Positions 22,574 to 32,157 of a stretch of DNA of 38,935 nt are shown here, in pieces. The stretch is from Nitrospirota bacterium (lineage in GTDB: Bacteria > Nitrospirota > Leptospirillia > Leptospirillales > Leptospirillaceae), in assembly GCA_021827365.1 (NCBI GenBank), contig JAKAWK010000005.1:1-38935 (forward strand), read 5' to 3'. Each line of letters opens with the position of its first letter. Within the stretch, counting starts at the first letter, position 1. Made by a program: the position numbers and the translations under genes. The notes under the pieces were generated by a model. The model saw nothing but the letters and a program-made list of their open reading frames with translations, was not told the origin of the DNA and made no database searches.

Positions 22574-23652
22574 AACCTCTGGGGCCGGCAGCGCTTCCGC
22601 TCTCCCTTCTCTATGCTCTCGGAGCAGGACTCTTCCGGCTGGGTTACGAATCGGGGATTCTGGAACGGAAATCCTTCAAAATTCCCGTTCTTTCCGTAGG
22701 AAACATTGAAGTGGGCGGGGCGGGAAAGACTCCCCTGGTCCTCTCCCTTTGCCGATATCTCCTGGCCCTGGGAAAACGGCCGGGGATCGTCTCCAGGGGA
22801 TACGGGAGACGGGATCCCTCCCGGGATCTCTTCGTCTGCCGGGGCCAGGGAGCTCTCGTCTCCCCGGAGGAGTCGGGAGACGAGGCGGCCCTTTATGCAA
22901 TGCGCCATCCGGAGATTCCTGTCGTGGTGGCCAGAGACCGGCGCCGGGGGGTGGCGATGATGGAGGGGCTCTGCGAGATTGTTCTTCTTGACGACGGCTT
23001 CCAGTCCCTTGAAGTCCGTCCGGCGGCCTCCCTTGTCTTTCTTCCCGCCTTCCTGGCAGAACGGCCTCCGGGCTTGTCCGACCTTCTGCCTGCCGGGCCT
23101 CTCCGGGAGCCGGCCGGGAGTCTTTCAAGAGCCACCCACTGGGTGATGACCTCCGCGGGGGATCCGGACCGGGACCGCAAGAGGGAAGAGCGTGTTCGGC
23201 ATCACCTTCTGGAAATCCTCACTCCGGAGGACCTTCGGCCAATCCTTTTTCAGCGTTTCCTCCTGTCAGAGGTCCGGGACCTTTCGGGGGACCGGATCTG
23301 TCGGCCGGAGGAGCTCTCAGGAAGGAGGGTGGCGGTGGTCGCCGGCATCGCCAACCCGGAGCGGGTGGAAGGGAGCCTTCGGAGCCTGGGCGCGGAGGTC
23401 GTCGGGATGCTGGCCCTTCCCGACCACGTCTCCTGCACGCCTCCGGTTCTTTCACGGATCGGCCTCTTTGCCGGACAGATGAAGGGGCAGGGGGCCACTC
23501 TACTTTTGACAACAGAAAAGGACCGGGTGAAGTGGCGAAACTCTCCGGCCGGGGATCTCCCGGTCGGGGTCCTAAAAGGGGAGGCGGAGCTAATGGAGAA
23601 AGAGAAATGGGAGGAACTCCTCTCGGCGCTTCTGGGAGGCGTGAGAAATTGA
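22570..23652 (+). CDS. lpxK: Tetraacyldisaccharide 4'-kinase LpxK
   Basis: A 360-residue membrane-associated P-loop kinase that phosphorylates the 4' position of the lipid A disaccharide. An N-terminal amphipathic/hydrophobic segment (PLSLLYALGAGLFRLGY) is followed by the P-loop SVGNIEVGGAGKTPL (Gly50-Lys53-Thr54), GIVSRGYGRR, DEAALYAMRHPEIPVVVARDRRRG, LLDDGFQ (the catalytic DDGFQ), LLPAGPLREP and VVAGIANPERV. LLTTEKDRVK is the late LpxK motif. It overlaps waaA by four bases (ATGA) and lpxL by four (TTGA). Confidence 0.93.
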   Translation: MKPLGPAALPLSLLYALGAGLFRLGYESGILERKSFKIPVLSVGNIEVGGAGKTPLVLSLCRYLLALGKRPGIVSRGYGRRDPSRDLFVCRGQGALVSPEESGDEAALYAMRHPEIPVVVARDRRRGVAMMEGLCEIVLLDDGFQSLEVRPAASLVFLPAFLAERPPGLSDLLPAGPLREPAGSLSRATHWVMTSAGDPDRDRKREERVRHHLLEILTPEDLRPILFQRFLLSEVRDLSGDRICRPEELSGRRVAVVAGIANPERVEGSLRSLGAEVVGMLALPDHVSCTPPVLSRIGLFAGQMKGQGATLLLTTEKDRVKWRNSPAGDLPVGVLKGEAELMEKEKWEELLSALLGGVRN

Positions 23653-24623
23653 GCGGCACCTCCTCTAAAGGCCCTCCGGGGAGCGAGACCTTTCCCTACC
23701 GGCTCCGCTGGGCCGGGATGTCCCTTCTCCGGGAATTCTTCTGTCTCCTTCCGGCCCCGATGGCCCTTTCCATGGGGGAGAGGGCGGGAGATCTTCTCCG
23801 TCGTCTCCTTCCCCGAAAAAGGGCCATCCTCCGCGACAACCTGCGAAAATCCGATCTTGGGCTCAGGGGAGAGCGGGAGATCGGAAATTTCGAAACAAAG
23901 GTTTTCCGTCATTTTGGAAGGCTGGGGGCGGAGGTCATGCGGCTCAAGGTCCTTTCCGACCCGGAGATCGCCCGGATGGTGCCGGTGGAGGGCCTTGAGC
24001 ACTTCCGGAGCGAATTCGGGAAGGGCCGGGGGGTCATCCTTCTCACGGGCCATATCGGAAACTGGGAGTACTCCCTTCGGCGAATCGCCCTTGAGGCTCC
24101 GGGGAAAGTCCACCCGGTGATCCGGCGCATCAAGTCTCCGACGGTTCACGACTTCGTCGACGACCACCGGGGGAAATATGCCAAGGGGGAATCAATCCTT
24201 GCGGATTCGGGAGTCAAGCCTCTCGTCCGGGCCCTGTCGAAGGGCCATGTGCTGATTGTTCTCCTCGACCAGAACGCGGGAGGTGAGGGGGAGGGGGTCT
24301 TCGTCCCCTTCTTCGGAAGGATGGCCTGCACCTATTCGAGCCTTGCGCGTCTCTCTCTTTTGATGGACCTTCCGGTCATTCCGGCGGCCTCCATCCGGAA
24401 GCCGGACGGAAGCTTCCAGGGGATGATCCGTCCTCCGATCTCTCCGATGAAGGAACTTCCCCAGGAGGAAGCGGTTTTCCGGCAGACGGCCCTCTACACG
24501 AAAGCCCTGGAGGATCTTGTCCGATGCTCACCCGAGCAGTGGATCTGGATCCACCGGCGCTGGAAGACCCGGCCCCCGGAGGAGAAAAAGGTTGGCCCTC
24601 TTGAGGGGCAGAGCCTTTCCTGA
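23649..24623 (+). CDS. lpxL: Lipid A lauroyl/late acyltransferase (LpxL/HtrB family)
   Basis: A 324-residue member of the LpxL/LpxM family, which adds secondary acyl chains to Kdo-lipid A. The HX4E catalytic motif is His135-Glu140 in LLTGHIGNWEY. RRIKSPTVHDFVDDHRGK, VRALSKGHVLIVLLDQNAGGEGEGVFVPFFGR and EQWIWIHRRWKTRP follow the family order. A hydrophobic N-terminal stretch (LREFFCLLPAPMALSMG) suits membrane association. TTG 23649 overlaps the lpxK stop as TTGA, with GGGAGG nine bases upstream. It is the only late acyltransferase in the window and the last gene of the operon. The acyl chain and acceptor position are unknown. Confidence 0.88.
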   Translation: MSGTSSKGPPGSETFPYRLRWAGMSLLREFFCLLPAPMALSMGERAGDLLRRLLPRKRAILRDNLRKSDLGLRGEREIGNFETKVFRHFGRLGAEVMRLKVLSDPEIARMVPVEGLEHFRSEFGKGRGVILLTGHIGNWEYSLRRIALEAPGKVHPVIRRIKSPTVHDFVDDHRGKYAKGESILADSGVKPLVRALSKGHVLIVLLDQNAGGEGEGVFVPFFGRMACTYSSLARLSLLMDLPVIPAASIRKPDGSFQGMIRPPISPMKELPQEEAVFRQTALYTKALEDLVRCSPEQWIWIHRRWKTRPPEEKKVGPLEGQSLS

Positions 24624-26390: not shown

Positions 26391-27929
26391 ATGAAATTCC
26401 TGGCCGTCCACCCGAGTTCTCTCATGTACACAAAAATATTTTTGAGGCTGGAACCTCTGGGCCTGGAGCTTCTGGCCCAGGCCGCGCGCCGGGGCGGGCA
26501 CGAGGTCCGCCTGATGGATCTCCAGGTGGAAACTCACAGGGACTTTGTCCGGCTCCTTGACGACTGGAAGCCCGATGCGGTGGGGTTCTCGCTTAACTAC
26601 CTGGCCAACGTTCCGGAGGTCATCGACCTTGCAAAACTCACAAAGAGCCGCCATCCAGAAGCTTTTGTCTTCGTGGGAGGACACAGCGCATCCTTCATCG
26701 CCCGGGAGATTCTTGACCATGGGCAGGGATCGATCGACTGTATCTTGAGGGGAGAAGGCGAAGCCTCCATCGAGAAGCTGCTTCTTGCGGTGGATCACGA
26801 TAGAAATGCGATCGGAGCGGTCCCAGGAACGGTCTTTGCCGGAGGAGAGGGGCCCCCTCCCGTCTTCGTGGAAAGCCTAGATGATCTGAGGCCAGCCAGG
26901 GATCTGCTGCGCCACCGGAGGAAGTATTTCATCGGAACGCTTGATCCCTGTGCCTCCGTCGAATTTGCCAGGGGCTGCCCGTGGGACTGTTCATTCTGCA
27001 GTGCCTGGACCTTCTACGGGCGAAGCTACCGGACCGTAAGCCCGGACAAGGCCGTTGAGGATCTGGCGACCACCAGGGAACCCGGGATCTTTCTCGTTGA
27101 TGACGTGGCCTTCATCCACGACAGGCTCGGGTTCGATATCGGAGAGGCGATCCTTTCGAAGGGAATCCGGAAGGAATACTATCTGGAAACCCGGGGGGAT
27201 GTGCTCCTTCGGAACAAGGAGGTCTTTCGGCTCTGGAAAGCGCTGGGTCTTCGGTATATGTTCATGGGGATCGAGGCCATCGACGAGGAAGGTCTCAAGA
27301 TGCACAGGAAGCGCATCTCCCTGGGTAAGAATTTCGAAGCACTCGAATTTGCGAGGACGCTGGGGATCACCGTCGCCATCAACCTGATTGTTGATCCGTC
27401 CTGGGACCGGAAACGTTTTGAGGTCATCCGGGAGTGGTGCCTGGAGATTCCTGAAATAGTCAATATCAGCGTCAACACGCCCTATCCGGGAACCGAGGCC
27501 TGGGTCAGGGAATCGAGGCCATTTACGACACGGGACTACCGCCTCTACGACATCCAGCATGCCGTCCTCCCGACCCTCCTTCCCCTTCCTGAATTCTACG
27601 AGGAACTGGTCAAGACCCAGCAGATCCTCAACATGAAGCACCTGGGCTGGCGGGCCCTCAAGGGAACGGCCTCCATCGTGGCCCGGCACCTCCTCCACGG
27701 CCAGACGAACTTCCTCAGGATGCTCTGGAAATTCAACAGCGTCTACAATCCGAAGCTTCAACTCTCCGACCACCAGCAACCGGTGCGATATGCCATGTCG
27801 CTTCCCTCTTCCGAGAGAGATTCCACCCGATCCAATGTCCAGTTCATTCACGAACCCCGCGGAAGGAAGAGCCGGCAAATTGATGAGGCGACAGAAGAGT
27901 TCGTCAACGGAAGCCTGACAGGCACATAG
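26391..27929 (+). CDS. hpnR: Hopanoid C-3 methylase HpnR (B12-binding radical SAM)
   Basis: A 512-residue class B radical SAM methylase. The N-terminal cobalamin-binding-like Rossmann domain (MKFLAVHPSSLMYTKIFLRLEPLGLELLAQAARR onward, GFSLNYLANVPEV, FVGGHSASF) precedes the radical SAM core. The core has GCPWDCSFCSAW, where Cys196, Cys200 and Cys203 bind the 4Fe-4S cluster. ETRGDVLLRNKEVFRLWKALGLRYMFMGIEAIDEEGLK and NISVNTPYPGTE are typical of the Elp3-like core. Length and N-terminus match what I know of HpnR, which methylates hopanoids at C-3 of the A ring. Start: AGGAGG lies four bases before ATG 26391. No other hopanoid gene is in the window, so it must act on hopanoids made elsewhere. Confidence 0.82.
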   Translation: MKFLAVHPSSLMYTKIFLRLEPLGLELLAQAARRGGHEVRLMDLQVETHRDFVRLLDDWKPDAVGFSLNYLANVPEVIDLAKLTKSRHPEAFVFVGGHSASFIAREILDHGQGSIDCILRGEGEASIEKLLLAVDHDRNAIGAVPGTVFAGGEGPPPVFVESLDDLRPARDLLRHRRKYFIGTLDPCASVEFARGCPWDCSFCSAWTFYGRSYRTVSPDKAVEDLATTREPGIFLVDDVAFIHDRLGFDIGEAILSKGIRKEYYLETRGDVLLRNKEVFRLWKALGLRYMFMGIEAIDEEGLKMHRKRISLGKNFEALEFARTLGITVAINLIVDPSWDRKRFEVIREWCLEIPEIVNISVNTPYPGTEAWVRESRPFTTRDYRLYDIQHAVLPTLLPLPEFYEELVKTQQILNMKHLGWRALKGTASIVARHLLHGQTNFLRMLWKFNSVYNPKLQLSDHQQPVRYAMSLPSSERDSTRSNVQFIHEPRGRKSRQIDEATEEFVNGSLTGT

Positions 27930-28074: not shown

Positions 28075-28119
28075 GGAAACGGCTTCCGGCTCGCTTGAAT
28101 CCCTCCTTTCTTCCGGATA

Positions 28120-28128
28120 TGCTAAAAT
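28120..28128 (+). promoter_or_regulatory. Extended -10 promoter of the first GT9/LPS-core operon
   Basis: TGC-TAAAAT, with TAAAAT at 28123-28128. The usual start-site distance puts +1 at about 28135, which is the A of the ATG, so the transcript may be leaderless. The -35 region has no good match. Confidence 0.45.
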
Positions 28129-28134
28129 ATTCTG

Positions 28135-29394
28135 ATGCATCCACACAGAGATCAATTACCCGCCCAACCGCCCGATGAAGAGGTCCCCGCCCCTCCCGAG
28201 TCCCTGAGAAGGCCGCCGGCATCCCTGCGCCCCTCCAGCTCCGAACTATCCTCAGGGAAAGCCCTGCCGCCCGGAAGTTCCGTCCTGGTTGTCCTCTTCG
28301 GGCGGATTGGGGATGTGATCTTCACCCTTCCCTCGGTCCAGGCTCTCAAGAGGGCCCGCCCGGACATCTCCGTCGACTGGCTGGTCGAAGACCGGTGCGC
28401 CGATCTTCTTTTGGGCCATCCGGCCCTTCGCCAGGTCTTTCTCTTCCGGAGAGGGGACTATTCCCGGGCGCTCAAAGCCCGGCGGTACGGACAGGCTATC
28501 GGAATTCTGGGGGATCTGGTGCGGAGTGTGAGGGAGGAGCGCTATGCCGCCGTCCTCGACTTTCAGGGACTCCTCAAATCCGGGGTGGCGACCTTTCTTG
28601 CCCGGGGGGATCTCAAGCTGGGATCTCCCTCCACCTACGGACGGATGAAGGAAGGGGCAGCTCTCTTTTCCCGGCAGGTTCCGATGACCCAGGAAGGGTT
28701 ACATCTGGTCCAACGCCATCTCCTCGTCGTCCGGGAGCTTCTGGGTCGGGCCGTTTCGCCGGAGCCTCTTCGTCTCGCCTTTACAGAGGAGGAGCACCAC
28801 CATGTGCGCTCCCTTGTGGGATCTTCCCCCTATGTTCTGATCCACCCCTTCGCCAGCTGGGCGACCCGAAACTGGCCCTCCTCTTCCTGGGCCCGGGTTG
28901 TCCGGGAAGTCTCGGGCCGGGGATTCCGGATCGCCCTGGCGGGGGCCGGTGGGGCGACCCAGGAGGAGATGAAGGCGGAGATTGAAAAATCGGTCTCCGG
29001 GGGTCTTGTCGATCTTCTGGGGAGACTCTCCCTTCGGGAGCTTTCTCTGGCCATGGGTCTCTCCGAAGCCGTTCTGGCAGTGGACTCCGGTCCCATGCAC
29101 CTTGCGGCCTCAACCGGGACCCGGGTGGTGGCCCTGTTCGGGCCGACCGATCCGGTCCGCCTGGGACCCTACGGCCCCCGGGTGGGGACGAGGGGAGAGG
29201 AGGAGATGGGACCTAACGGAAGGGTGGTGACGGCAGGGCTTCCCTGCCAGCCCTGCATGATGCGCCGCTGTCCCATCGGAACGCCCTGCCAGGACCGCCT
29301 GGAGCCCGAGGCGGTGATCGCGGCCTTCGAGGAGGTCCTGAGGGGACGGGAGAAGGCGGGACAGGCCCGGGAGCTTATGGAGAGCCGGAGATGA
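28135..29394 (+). CDS. GT9 glycosyltransferase, heptosyltransferase-like (GT9 copy 1)
   Basis: A 419-residue member of the GT-B family GT9, which transfers ADP-heptose or related sugars to the LPS core on the cytoplasmic face. Family features are VVLFGRIGDVIFTLPSVQALKRARP (residues about 52-76), LDFQGLLKSG, LIHPFASWATRNWPSSSW, VDSGPMHLAASTGTRVVALFGPTDP and a C-terminal cysteine cluster CQPCMMRRCPIGTPC. The first ~48 residues are a Pro-rich extension absent from ordinary GT9 enzymes. They contain no alternative ATG/GTG/TTG, and ATG 28135 has no Shine-Dalgarno sequence, consistent with a leaderless message. The pattern resembles WaaC, but the acceptor is uncertain. It overlaps the next gene by four bases (ATGA). 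Confidence 0.82.
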   Translation: MHPHRDQLPAQPPDEEVPAPPESLRRPPASLRPSSSELSSGKALPPGSSVLVVLFGRIGDVIFTLPSVQALKRARPDISVDWLVEDRCADLLLGHPALRQVFLFRRGDYSRALKARRYGQAIGILGDLVRSVREERYAAVLDFQGLLKSGVATFLARGDLKLGSPSTYGRMKEGAALFSRQVPMTQEGLHLVQRHLLVVRELLGRAVSPEPLRLAFTEEEHHHVRSLVGSSPYVLIHPFASWATRNWPSSSWARVVREVSGRGFRIALAGAGGATQEEMKAEIEKSVSGGLVDLLGRLSLRELSLAMGLSEAVLAVDSGPMHLAASTGTRVVALFGPTDPVRLGPYGPRVGTRGEEEMGPNGRVVTAGLPCQPCMMRRCPIGTPCQDRLEPEAVIAAFEEVLRGREKAGQARELMESRR

Positions 29395-30545
29395 CAACAC
29401 CCCCTTCCAAAGAGACCTCCTTGCGGACACTGAAAAACCTCCTGATCGTCAAGCCCTCGTCCCTGGGAGACATCCTTCATGCCCTTCCCCTTGTCGAAGA
29501 ACTGCATTCCGCCTTTCCCGGCATTTCCGTGGACTGGGTGGCCAATGGAGAATTCGTTCGCCTGGTTCGGCGCCATCCGGGCCTCCGGAATGTTTGGGAA
29601 TTTCCCCGCAAGGAATTCGGGCGGCCGGCCTTCTTCCGGAAGATGGGGATCCTCTCCCGGAATCTTTCCGCCAATCCCTATGAGGTCGTCCTGGATGCCC
29701 AGGGGCTCCTGCGATCGGCCCTCCTTTCCCGAATGGCGGCAAGGGGGGCAGGTTCGCAGGTCTTGGGCTTTGCGAGCGCCCGGGAGGGGGCGACGCTCCT
29801 GTATGACCGGACTGTCAAGATCCCCGAATCTCCCGGCCATCCCTTCCACGCCGTCCCCCGGAACCTCCTCTTTCTCCAGGCCCTGGGGGCGGGGGGAGGA
29901 GGGACTCCGGGTCCGCTCCGGCTCCATTACGCTCCCGAAGACCGGGAGACCGTCGATCGCCTCCTGGCAGAGTGCGGACTCTTGCCGGGAGAGCCCTTCA
30001 TCGCCCTTCATCCCGGGGCAAGACGGGAGAGCAAGCGTTGGCCCTCGAGCTACTTCTCGGACCTTCTGCGGACCATGGCGAAAAAAGGTCTGCCCCGACC
30101 TCTCCTCCTGGGGGACAGAGGCGAGGCGTCCCTTCTCTCCCAAATCGAGGCCCGTTCGGGTGTTCCCGTTTCCGTCCTGGCGGGCCGGATCCCCCTCGAT
30201 CTTCTGCCCCATTTCCTGTCCCGGGCCATCCTTTTTGTGGGGAACGACTCCGGACCCCTCCACATGGCGGCCCTTTCCGGTGTGCCCACCCTGTCCTTTT
30301 ACGGGTCCTCCGATCCCGGCCGCACCGGCCCCTGGGGGGATCCGCAGAGAAACATCGTTCTCCGTGAGCCTATCGCCTGCTCCCCCTGCGGGGACTTCCG
30401 CAAATCCTGCACGCATATGACCTGCCAGGTCAGCCTTCCTCCCCAGTTGGCCCTCGACGCGGTCCTGCTTCTGCTTGAAGGGGCCCGGGAGCGGGGGAGC
30501 GGATCCGTCCCCCTCCCGACTCTCTCCGGGAGCGGTCCCCGATGA
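29391..30545 (+). CDS. GT9 glycosyltransferase, heptosyltransferase-like (GT9 copy 2)
   Basis: A 384-residue GT9 enzyme. It has LLIVKPSSLGDILHALPLVEELHSAFP near the N-terminus (typical of heptosyltransferase I/WaaC-like proteins), DAQGLLRSALLSRMA, ALHPGARRESKRWPSSYFSDLL, VGNDSGPLHMAALSGVPTLSFYGSSDPGRTGPWG and a cysteine cluster CSPCGDFRKSCTHMTC. The extended loop between the two Rossmann domains is glycine-rich (GAGGGGTPG). It is coupled by ATGA overlaps to the GT9 gene before it and the waaF-like gene after it, so the three are made together. Specificity is not readable, but the context supports inner-core assembly. Confidence 0.82.
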   Translation: MTTPPSKETSLRTLKNLLIVKPSSLGDILHALPLVEELHSAFPGISVDWVANGEFVRLVRRHPGLRNVWEFPRKEFGRPAFFRKMGILSRNLSANPYEVVLDAQGLLRSALLSRMAARGAGSQVLGFASAREGATLLYDRTVKIPESPGHPFHAVPRNLLFLQALGAGGGGTPGPLRLHYAPEDRETVDRLLAECGLLPGEPFIALHPGARRESKRWPSSYFSDLLRTMAKKGLPRPLLLGDRGEASLLSQIEARSGVPVSVLAGRIPLDLLPHFLSRAILFVGNDSGPLHMAALSGVPTLSFYGSSDPGRTGPWGDPQRNIVLREPIACSPCGDFRKSCTHMTCQVSLPPQLALDAVLLLLEGARERGSGSVPLPTLSGSGPR

Positions 30546-31564
30546 CGGAGCCCCTCCCGAAAAACGGACGCCTTTATGTCCGGGGTCTCAACTGGATCGG
30601 AGATGCCGTCCTCTCCCTCGGAGCCCTTCAGGGCCTCAAAAAGGTGCGACCGGATCTCCATCTCACCGTGGGAGCCCCCCCGGCCACGGACGGGGTCTAC
30701 CGGCTTTCAGCCGCAGTCGACGCGGTCGTTCCCCCTCCCGGGCTCCGCTCGGGTCTCAGATTCGACGCCGCCGTGATCCTCCCGCGCTCTTTCAGGAGCG
30801 CCTGGGAGTCGCTCTTCCTCTCGGGCCGCCGGATCGGTTTCGCCTCGGAGGGCCGATCCCTCCTTTTGACTCAGGTGCTGGACTATCAGGGCTGGAAGAG
30901 GGCCCATCGACATCAGTCGACCTATTACGAGACTCTTGTCCGGTCTGTCGATCCCGGGGCCGCCTTCGAACCCCCGGTCTTTTTCCTGTCCCCAGAGGCC
31001 CTCTCCCGGGCCAGAGGGCGGCTTTGGTCGTTTGTGGCGGAGGGAGAACGGGTGGTGGCCGTGAATCCCGGCGCCTTTTACGGTCGGGCCAAGACCTGGC
31101 CCTCCCATCACTTTGTCCGCCTCCTTGGGGATCTTCTCGAGGCCCGGCCGTCCCTTCATGCGATCCTCTTTTCGGGGGAGGCGGACCGTCCCCTGGCCCG
31201 GGAGATCGAACGCCGCCTTCCCCATCCCCGACTCCATTCGGTGGCGGGAGAGCTGTCTCTTCCCGAGAGCGCAGCCCTTCTCTCCCTTTGTGACGCCCTG
31301 GTGACAAACGATTCGGGAATGATGCATCTGGGATCCGCCACCGGCCGTCCCGGGGTCGCCCTCTTCGGGCCGACCGACCCGGTCGCGACCGGTCCGGTTC
31401 CTCCCGCGTCGGGCCGGGGAATCTCCGTCCTTTCGGTCCCGACCCCCTGCGCGCCCTGCCTTCTCCGGGAATGTCCCATTGACCATCGCTGCATGGAAGG
31501 GCTCGCCCCCGAGCGGGTGCTTTCCGAGATCCTGACGGTGCTGAAAGGAGATACGCTTTCGTGA
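30542..31564 (+). CDS. waaF: ADP-heptose:LPS heptosyltransferase II (WaaF-like, GT9 copy 3)
   Basis: A 340-residue GT9 enzyme with the closest resemblance in this window to WaaF, which adds the second heptose of the inner core. It has VRGLNWIGDAVLSLGALQGLKK (residues about 10-31), NPGAFYGRAKTWPSHHFVRLL, TNDSGMMHLGSATGRPGVALFGPTDPVATGP and the WaaF-type cluster CAPCLLRECPIDHRC near the C-terminus. No signal peptide or membrane helix is present. ATG overlaps the preceding stop (ATGA) and its own stop overlaps the GTG of gmhB, the phosphatase that helps make its donor sugar. Confidence 0.85.
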   Translation: MTEPLPKNGRLYVRGLNWIGDAVLSLGALQGLKKVRPDLHLTVGAPPATDGVYRLSAAVDAVVPPPGLRSGLRFDAAVILPRSFRSAWESLFLSGRRIGFASEGRSLLLTQVLDYQGWKRAHRHQSTYYETLVRSVDPGAAFEPPVFFLSPEALSRARGRLWSFVAEGERVVAVNPGAFYGRAKTWPSHHFVRLLGDLLEARPSLHAILFSGEADRPLAREIERRLPHPRLHSVAGELSLPESAALLSLCDALVTNDSGMMHLGSATGRPGVALFGPTDPVATGPVPPASGRGISVLSVPTPCAPCLLRECPIDHRCMEGLAPERVLSEILTVLKGDTLS

Positions 31565-32157
31565 AAAACAGGAAGAGACATCCGATGGTCCTGGCCGACC
31601 GGGACGGGACCCTCATCCGGGACGTTCCCTATCTCTCCCGTCTCGAGGACATCGCCCTTCTTCCGGGGGTGGCGGAGGCTATTCGCCAGCTCAACCGGCG
31701 CCAGATCCCGGTGGCGATGGTCACCAACCAGTCCGGGGTGGCCCGGGGGTATTTCCCGGAATCCTTCGTCCTGGAGAGCCATGCCCGTCTCATGGAGCTT
31801 CTGGCGGCGGAGGATGCCGCCATCCAGGGGCTTTACTACTGCCCACACCTTTCGCCCAAGGACCCTCATTCCATCCCGGAGGCCGCCCTGGCCCGATACC
31901 GGCGGGCCTGCTCGTGCCGGAAACCGGAGCCTGAGCTTCTTCTCCGGGCCCTTTATGATCTGGAAGGAGATCCGGAGAGGAGCGTCGTCATCGGCGACGC
32001 CGACAGGGACCTTTTGGCGGGCCAGGCGGCGGGTGTTTCGCTTGGATACCGCATCGTGGGCGGGGAATCAGGGGCACAAACCGTTTTTTCCCCGTTTCGG
32101 GTCCTCTCCTTTGCGGAAGGGGTGGAGCGTTTCCTTACCTGGCTCGACCGCGGGTGA
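31561..32157 (+). CDS. gmhB: D-glycero-D-manno-heptose-1,7-bisphosphate 7-phosphatase (GmhB)
   Basis: A 198-residue HAD-superfamily phosphatase of the ADP-heptose pathway. The nucleophile motif is VLADRDGTLI (Asp13, Asp15). RDVPYLSRLEDIALLPGVAEAIRQLN and TNQSGVARG (motif II Thr) are typical of histidinol-phosphatase/GmhB enzymes. CSCRKPEPELLLRA carries motif III lysine with part of the zinc-binding cysteine site (CPHLSP...CSC), and VVIGDADRDLLAGQAAG is motif IV. The other pathway genes (gmhA, hldE) are not in the window. The GTG start forms GTGA with the waaF-like stop. A large stem-loop begins on the stop codon. Confidence 0.85.
   Translation: MKNRKRHPMVLADRDGTLIRDVPYLSRLEDIALLPGVAEAIRQLNRRQIPVAMVTNQSGVARGYFPESFVLESHARLMELLAAEDAAIQGLYYCPHLSPKDPHSIPEAALARYRRACSCRKPEPELLLRALYDLEGDPERSVVIGDADRDLLAGQAAGVSLGYRIVGGESGAQTVFSPFRVLSFAEGVERFLTWLDRG

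Follow-up and report, generated by a model that had tools for sequence, protein, structure and literature searches.

A conserved extended -10 element adjoining the start codon of a heptosyltransferase I-like gene in Leptospirillum relatives points to a leaderless mRNA and a translated N-terminal tail

The window, a stretch of 38,935 nucleotides, comes from the draft genome of an uncultured Leptospirillum relative (2.25 Mb, 87% complete, 59% GC). Its plus strand contains a gene at 28135..29394 predicted to encode a 419 aa enzyme that belongs to the GT9 family (PF01075 match 2.4e-39, 135.6 bits against a gathering score of 22). The match to the heptosyltransferase I model TIGR02193 reaches 154.7 bits, below the cut-off of 185.3, so we call the enzyme heptosyltransferase I-like only. 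The structures of WaaC, a heptosyltransferase I of the same sequence family (PDB 2gt1, 2h1f), align over residues 50-348 of the window protein, beginning at WaaC residue 3, and compared with WaaC the window enzyme has about 48 extra N-terminal residues. Lys192 of WaaC corresponds to Arg245, and the surrounding TRNW (28864-28878, residues 244-248) is invariant in seven aligned orthologues from the genus. The cysteines of a C-x2-C-x4-C-x5-C cluster close to the C-terminus (29245-29289, residues 371-385) are also invariant and perhaps form a metal site.

The ATG at 28135 starts the first of several heptosyltransferase-like genes. Downstream on the same strand is a heptose cluster (29391..32157) that encodes a second GT9 enzyme, a HepII-like GT9 enzyme and a GmhB-like phosphatase. 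Immediately upstream, also on the plus strand, is hpnR (26391..27929), encoding a hopanoid C-3 methylase (TIGR04367, 885 bits against a cut-off of 650), which starts with its own Shine-Dalgarno sequence (GAGGA). An lpxL-like acyltransferase gene (23532-24623) precedes the GT9 gene by about 3.5 kb, and in the window species hpnR sits between the lpxL-like and heptosyltransferase genes. We found no terminator-like site between hpnR and the GT9 gene and no Rfam family near the locus.

An extended -10 element, TG-C-TAAAAT, lies directly before the GT9 gene on the plus strand (TGCTAAAAT, 28120..28128; TGCTAAAATATTCTGATG through the start codon at 28120-28137, or TATGCTAAAATATTCTGATG for 28118-28137). 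The TAAAAT hexamer occupies 28123-28128 and is separated from the ATG by 6 nt. This places its first T exactly at -12, where -10-adjacent leaderless genes have the first T of TANNNT about 12 nt before the start. We saw no usable -35 element, since TTGAAT at 28095 would give a 22-nt spacer. There is no SD-like 4-mer upstream of the ATG, as expected of a leaderless gene; in the sampled parts of this genome, such 4-mers occur at 50% of predicted starts and at 23% when shuffled. The only in-frame ATG, GTG or TTG before the GRIGD motif of the domain is the one at 28135, the next being the GTG at 28315 inside the GT9 domain. These results bear out the sequence-only reading, which had described the extended -10 just before the ATG, the missing Shine-Dalgarno and the lack of another start before the conserved domain. 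Based on the 6-nt spacing and a genus-wide peak at 6-7 nt, transcription is predicted to start on the plus strand at the A of the start codon (28135), or at G28134 with a 1-nt leader. The mRNA 5' end was unstructured in the window and in one orthologue, G012 (z +1.8 and +1.7). We rejected this as a common feature because it was absent in the other four orthologues folded.

We compared the window species (G000) with eight orthologues in the genus, all from metagenome genomes (G002, G003, G004, G005, G007, G010, G012 and G013; 58-91% identical in the orthologue search). In all nine, and so down to about 55% protein identity, the GT9 domain is preceded by an extended -10 that matches TGNTANAAT, in the variants TGCTAAAAT, TGTTAAAAT, TGGTAAAAT, TGATATAAT, TGATAGAAT and TGATACAAT. 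An in-frame ATG was observed exactly 6 nt after the element in six species (G000, G005, G007, G003, G012 and G004). G010 has ATC at the usual position and an in-frame ATG at 9 nt; the ATG of G013, at 8 nt, does not share the frame of the GT9 domain. In G002 the ATG after the -10 has been lost, and an in-frame TAA lies shortly downstream. The layout is thus kept, with the ATG at 6 nt in six species, at 8-9 nt in two and absent in one; G013 and G002 count against the leaderless reading. The GT9 domain frame of G013 (L006) contains no ATG, GTG or TTG before GRIGD; either the frame is truly broken there or the assembly is wrong. Among the three closest species hardly any position varies between the -35 zone and the ATG, with the conserved promoter core and spacer CTTTCTTCCGGATATGCTAAAATAnnCTG at 28101..28134 on the plus strand, and sequence farther upstream cannot be aligned. 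We did not see the promoter-ATG layout at the GT9 gene in orthologues from other genera of the family.

The gene upstream of this element differs between species. In G002, G012 and G004 the TGA stop codon of an lpxL-like acyltransferase gene forms the TGA of TGATAnAAT. In G000, G005 and G007 hpnR lies directly upstream instead, and the element reads TGCTAAAAT. The promoter persists despite the rearranged neighbor, which argues that it is functional. It is very improbable that the -10-like sequence is a chance match without promoter function. The same pattern does arise inside coding sequence, as in a ferredoxin-like match (L187) that we discarded because the pattern there encodes CYNP, but the background density of TGNTANAAT is 1.8e-5 per position-strand (498 kb of this genome), so that chance would not be expected to put it at one precise distance from a particular start, and the element is kept in nine species with diverged flanks. 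As far as sequence comparison goes, this conservation settles that the motif is not a chance one.

A histogram of TANAAT and TANNNT before the called genes of the sampled 498 kb was too sparse for a clear peak, and we used whole-genome pattern searches instead. In the window genome, TGNTANAAT is followed by an ATG at 3-20 nt in 17 cases, 10 of them at 5-7 nt (P=1e-4). In four other genomes of the genus, those with fully listed matches, 43 of 129 matches with spacings of 2-30 nt lie 5-7 nt before an ATG (P~1e-12); 26 of the 129 are at exactly 6 nt, and other spacings hold about 3.3 each. These counts include nested ATGs and some matches inside coding sequence, which raise the baseline whatever the spacing. 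A weaker excess (26/120, P=2e-4) was seen in three genomes belonging to other genera of the family, largely due to G015, a related complete genome with 15 of 66 matches at 5-7 nt (P=0.003). The enrichment suggests that a small leaderless class exists in the genus and, more weakly, in the family. Genes with the same layout are predicted to encode a DUF2127 membrane protein, an EamA transporter, a carbon-nitrogen hydrolase, an Arc-like small protein (assigned by eye, with no Pfam match), a pantoate ligase (at 7 nt) and transposases. The DUF2127, EamA and Arc-like layouts recur between species with conserved N-termini. At the hydrolase gene of the window genome (L041, contig C101, 12723-12748, minus strand), the extended -10 is followed after 6 nt by ATG CTA GCA TGA, a three-codon leaderless mini-ORF that overlaps the likely real ATG of the hydrolase. 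A nearly identical string is present in G001 (C38), and in G002 (L179) the ATG next to the promoter shares the hydrolase reading frame. Being conserved next to the ATG in the genus and part of a genome-wide class, the -10 element supports the leaderless expression that had been proposed for the GT9 gene.

The protein that would begin at 28135 has a variable N-terminal extension, residues 1-43 (28135..28263, plus strand), and its conserved part starts at LPxGS (LPPGS, residue 44). The extension had been described as a Pro/Ser-rich leader of about 48 residues. This holds in the window, where residues 1-48 include 12 Pro and 8 Ser, but neither composition nor sequence is conserved: more distant orthologues do not share the Pro-richness, and the sequence is common only to the three closest species. 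The length before LPxGS ranges from 29 to 60 residues among ATG-started orthologues. No orthologue in the genus starts at VVLFGRIGD; in every one GRIGD is preceded by 36-72 residues or by an open frame that long. The GTG found at VVLFG in some orthologues is unlikely to be the true start; it would cut the first strand, predicted by AlphaFold2 at residues 49-54, and is absent in the window. The same model, from a shallow alignment of seven sequences, gave a pLDDT of about 32 for residues 1-41, consistent with disorder. The extension is probably translated, because seven of the eight distinct promoter-to-domain lengths are multiples of 3 (P=0.0026, treating lengths as independent) and the frame between promoter and domain is without a stop in eight of the nine species. 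A selected function for the tail, for example in binding a membrane or a partner or in regulating the enzyme, is unlikely. The tail is present in genus orthologues, and the three closest species share the patches MH(P/S)HRD and (V/F)PAPPES, but no sequence is common outside this trio, the length varies, disorder is predicted, and dN/dS is 0.6-1.5 in the extension compared with 0.14-0.24 in the rest of the protein (small counts). The extension is thus little constrained, and with a near-neutral dN/dS substitution patterns alone do not prove its translation.

Weak amino-acid constraint in the tail would also fit leadered transcripts, either from hpnR read-through with ATG 28135 used without a Shine-Dalgarno or with an internal non-canonical start such as CTG 28264. 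The lack of a terminator-like site between the two genes favors this, as does an AGGG 6 nt upstream of CTG 28264. However, the six orthologues outside G000, G005 and G007 all have CTT or CTC at this codon while keeping Leu-Pro, which identifies a conserved residue rather than a start, and we rejected CTG 28264. Moreover, all nine species have the -10, whereas hpnR was found upstream in just three. We therefore regard leadered transcripts as quite unlikely to explain the locus, and read-through could add a longer transcript.

The explanation we consider probable is that the extended -10 promoter yields a leaderless mRNA and that the tail is translated as a by-product of promoter placement. The promoter, acting without a -35 element, would start transcription at the A of ATG 28135 or the preceding G, giving a leader of 0-1 nt; judged from the sequence, the mRNA very probably starts exactly at the start codon. 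Without a Shine-Dalgarno, ribosomes would then initiate at the 5'-terminal AUG. Since a few dozen codons separate the promoter from the GT9 domain downstream, and the start codon would be at the mRNA 5' end, the sequence in between would be translated as a disordered, nearly unconstrained tail preceding an otherwise ordinary heptosyltransferase I-like enzyme. More tentatively, and with somewhat less than even confidence, we propose that the genus has a minor set of leaderless genes in which the extended -10, by its position, determines where the protein begins and disordered tails shift with promoters. In three species the promoter would be built on the lpxL-like stop codon, turning an operon-internal gene into a leaderless unit without intergenic space.

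Genes of this kind, leaderless and with the -10 close to the start codon, are well known from other phyla (PMC3160421, PMC12340547). A literature search combining leaderless with Leptospirillum or Nitrospirae/Nitrospirota found nothing on this group, and a term search of PMC3160421 found no mention of Nitrospira or Leptospirillum. The GT9 gene is thus a well-supported candidate for a new leaderless example among Leptospirillum relatives, within a conserved predicted set in a group for which our search turned up none. The gene is also useful for annotating start codons, as a specific instance of an N-terminal extension that may be due to where the promoter lies and not to what the protein does. 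Beyond the earlier reading, our analysis adds that the layout is conserved, that it belongs to a genus-wide class, that the tail is weakly constrained and that a stop codon overlaps the -10. In the TA-led leaderless genes of bacteria, TANNNT begins about 12 nt ahead of the start codon; they lack a Shine-Dalgarno and come first in their transcript (Zheng et al. 2011, PMC3160421). The window gene shares the TANNNT position and the lack of a Shine-Dalgarno, would likewise be the first gene of its transcript, and adds the TG extension in a 59% GC genome. In Deinococcus-Thermus, -10 regions that abut ORFs commonly drive expression via leaderless mRNA, as tested experimentally (PMC12340547). The -10 abuts the ORF here in the same way, whereas in these Leptospirillum relatives the predicted class is a minor one, known from sequence.
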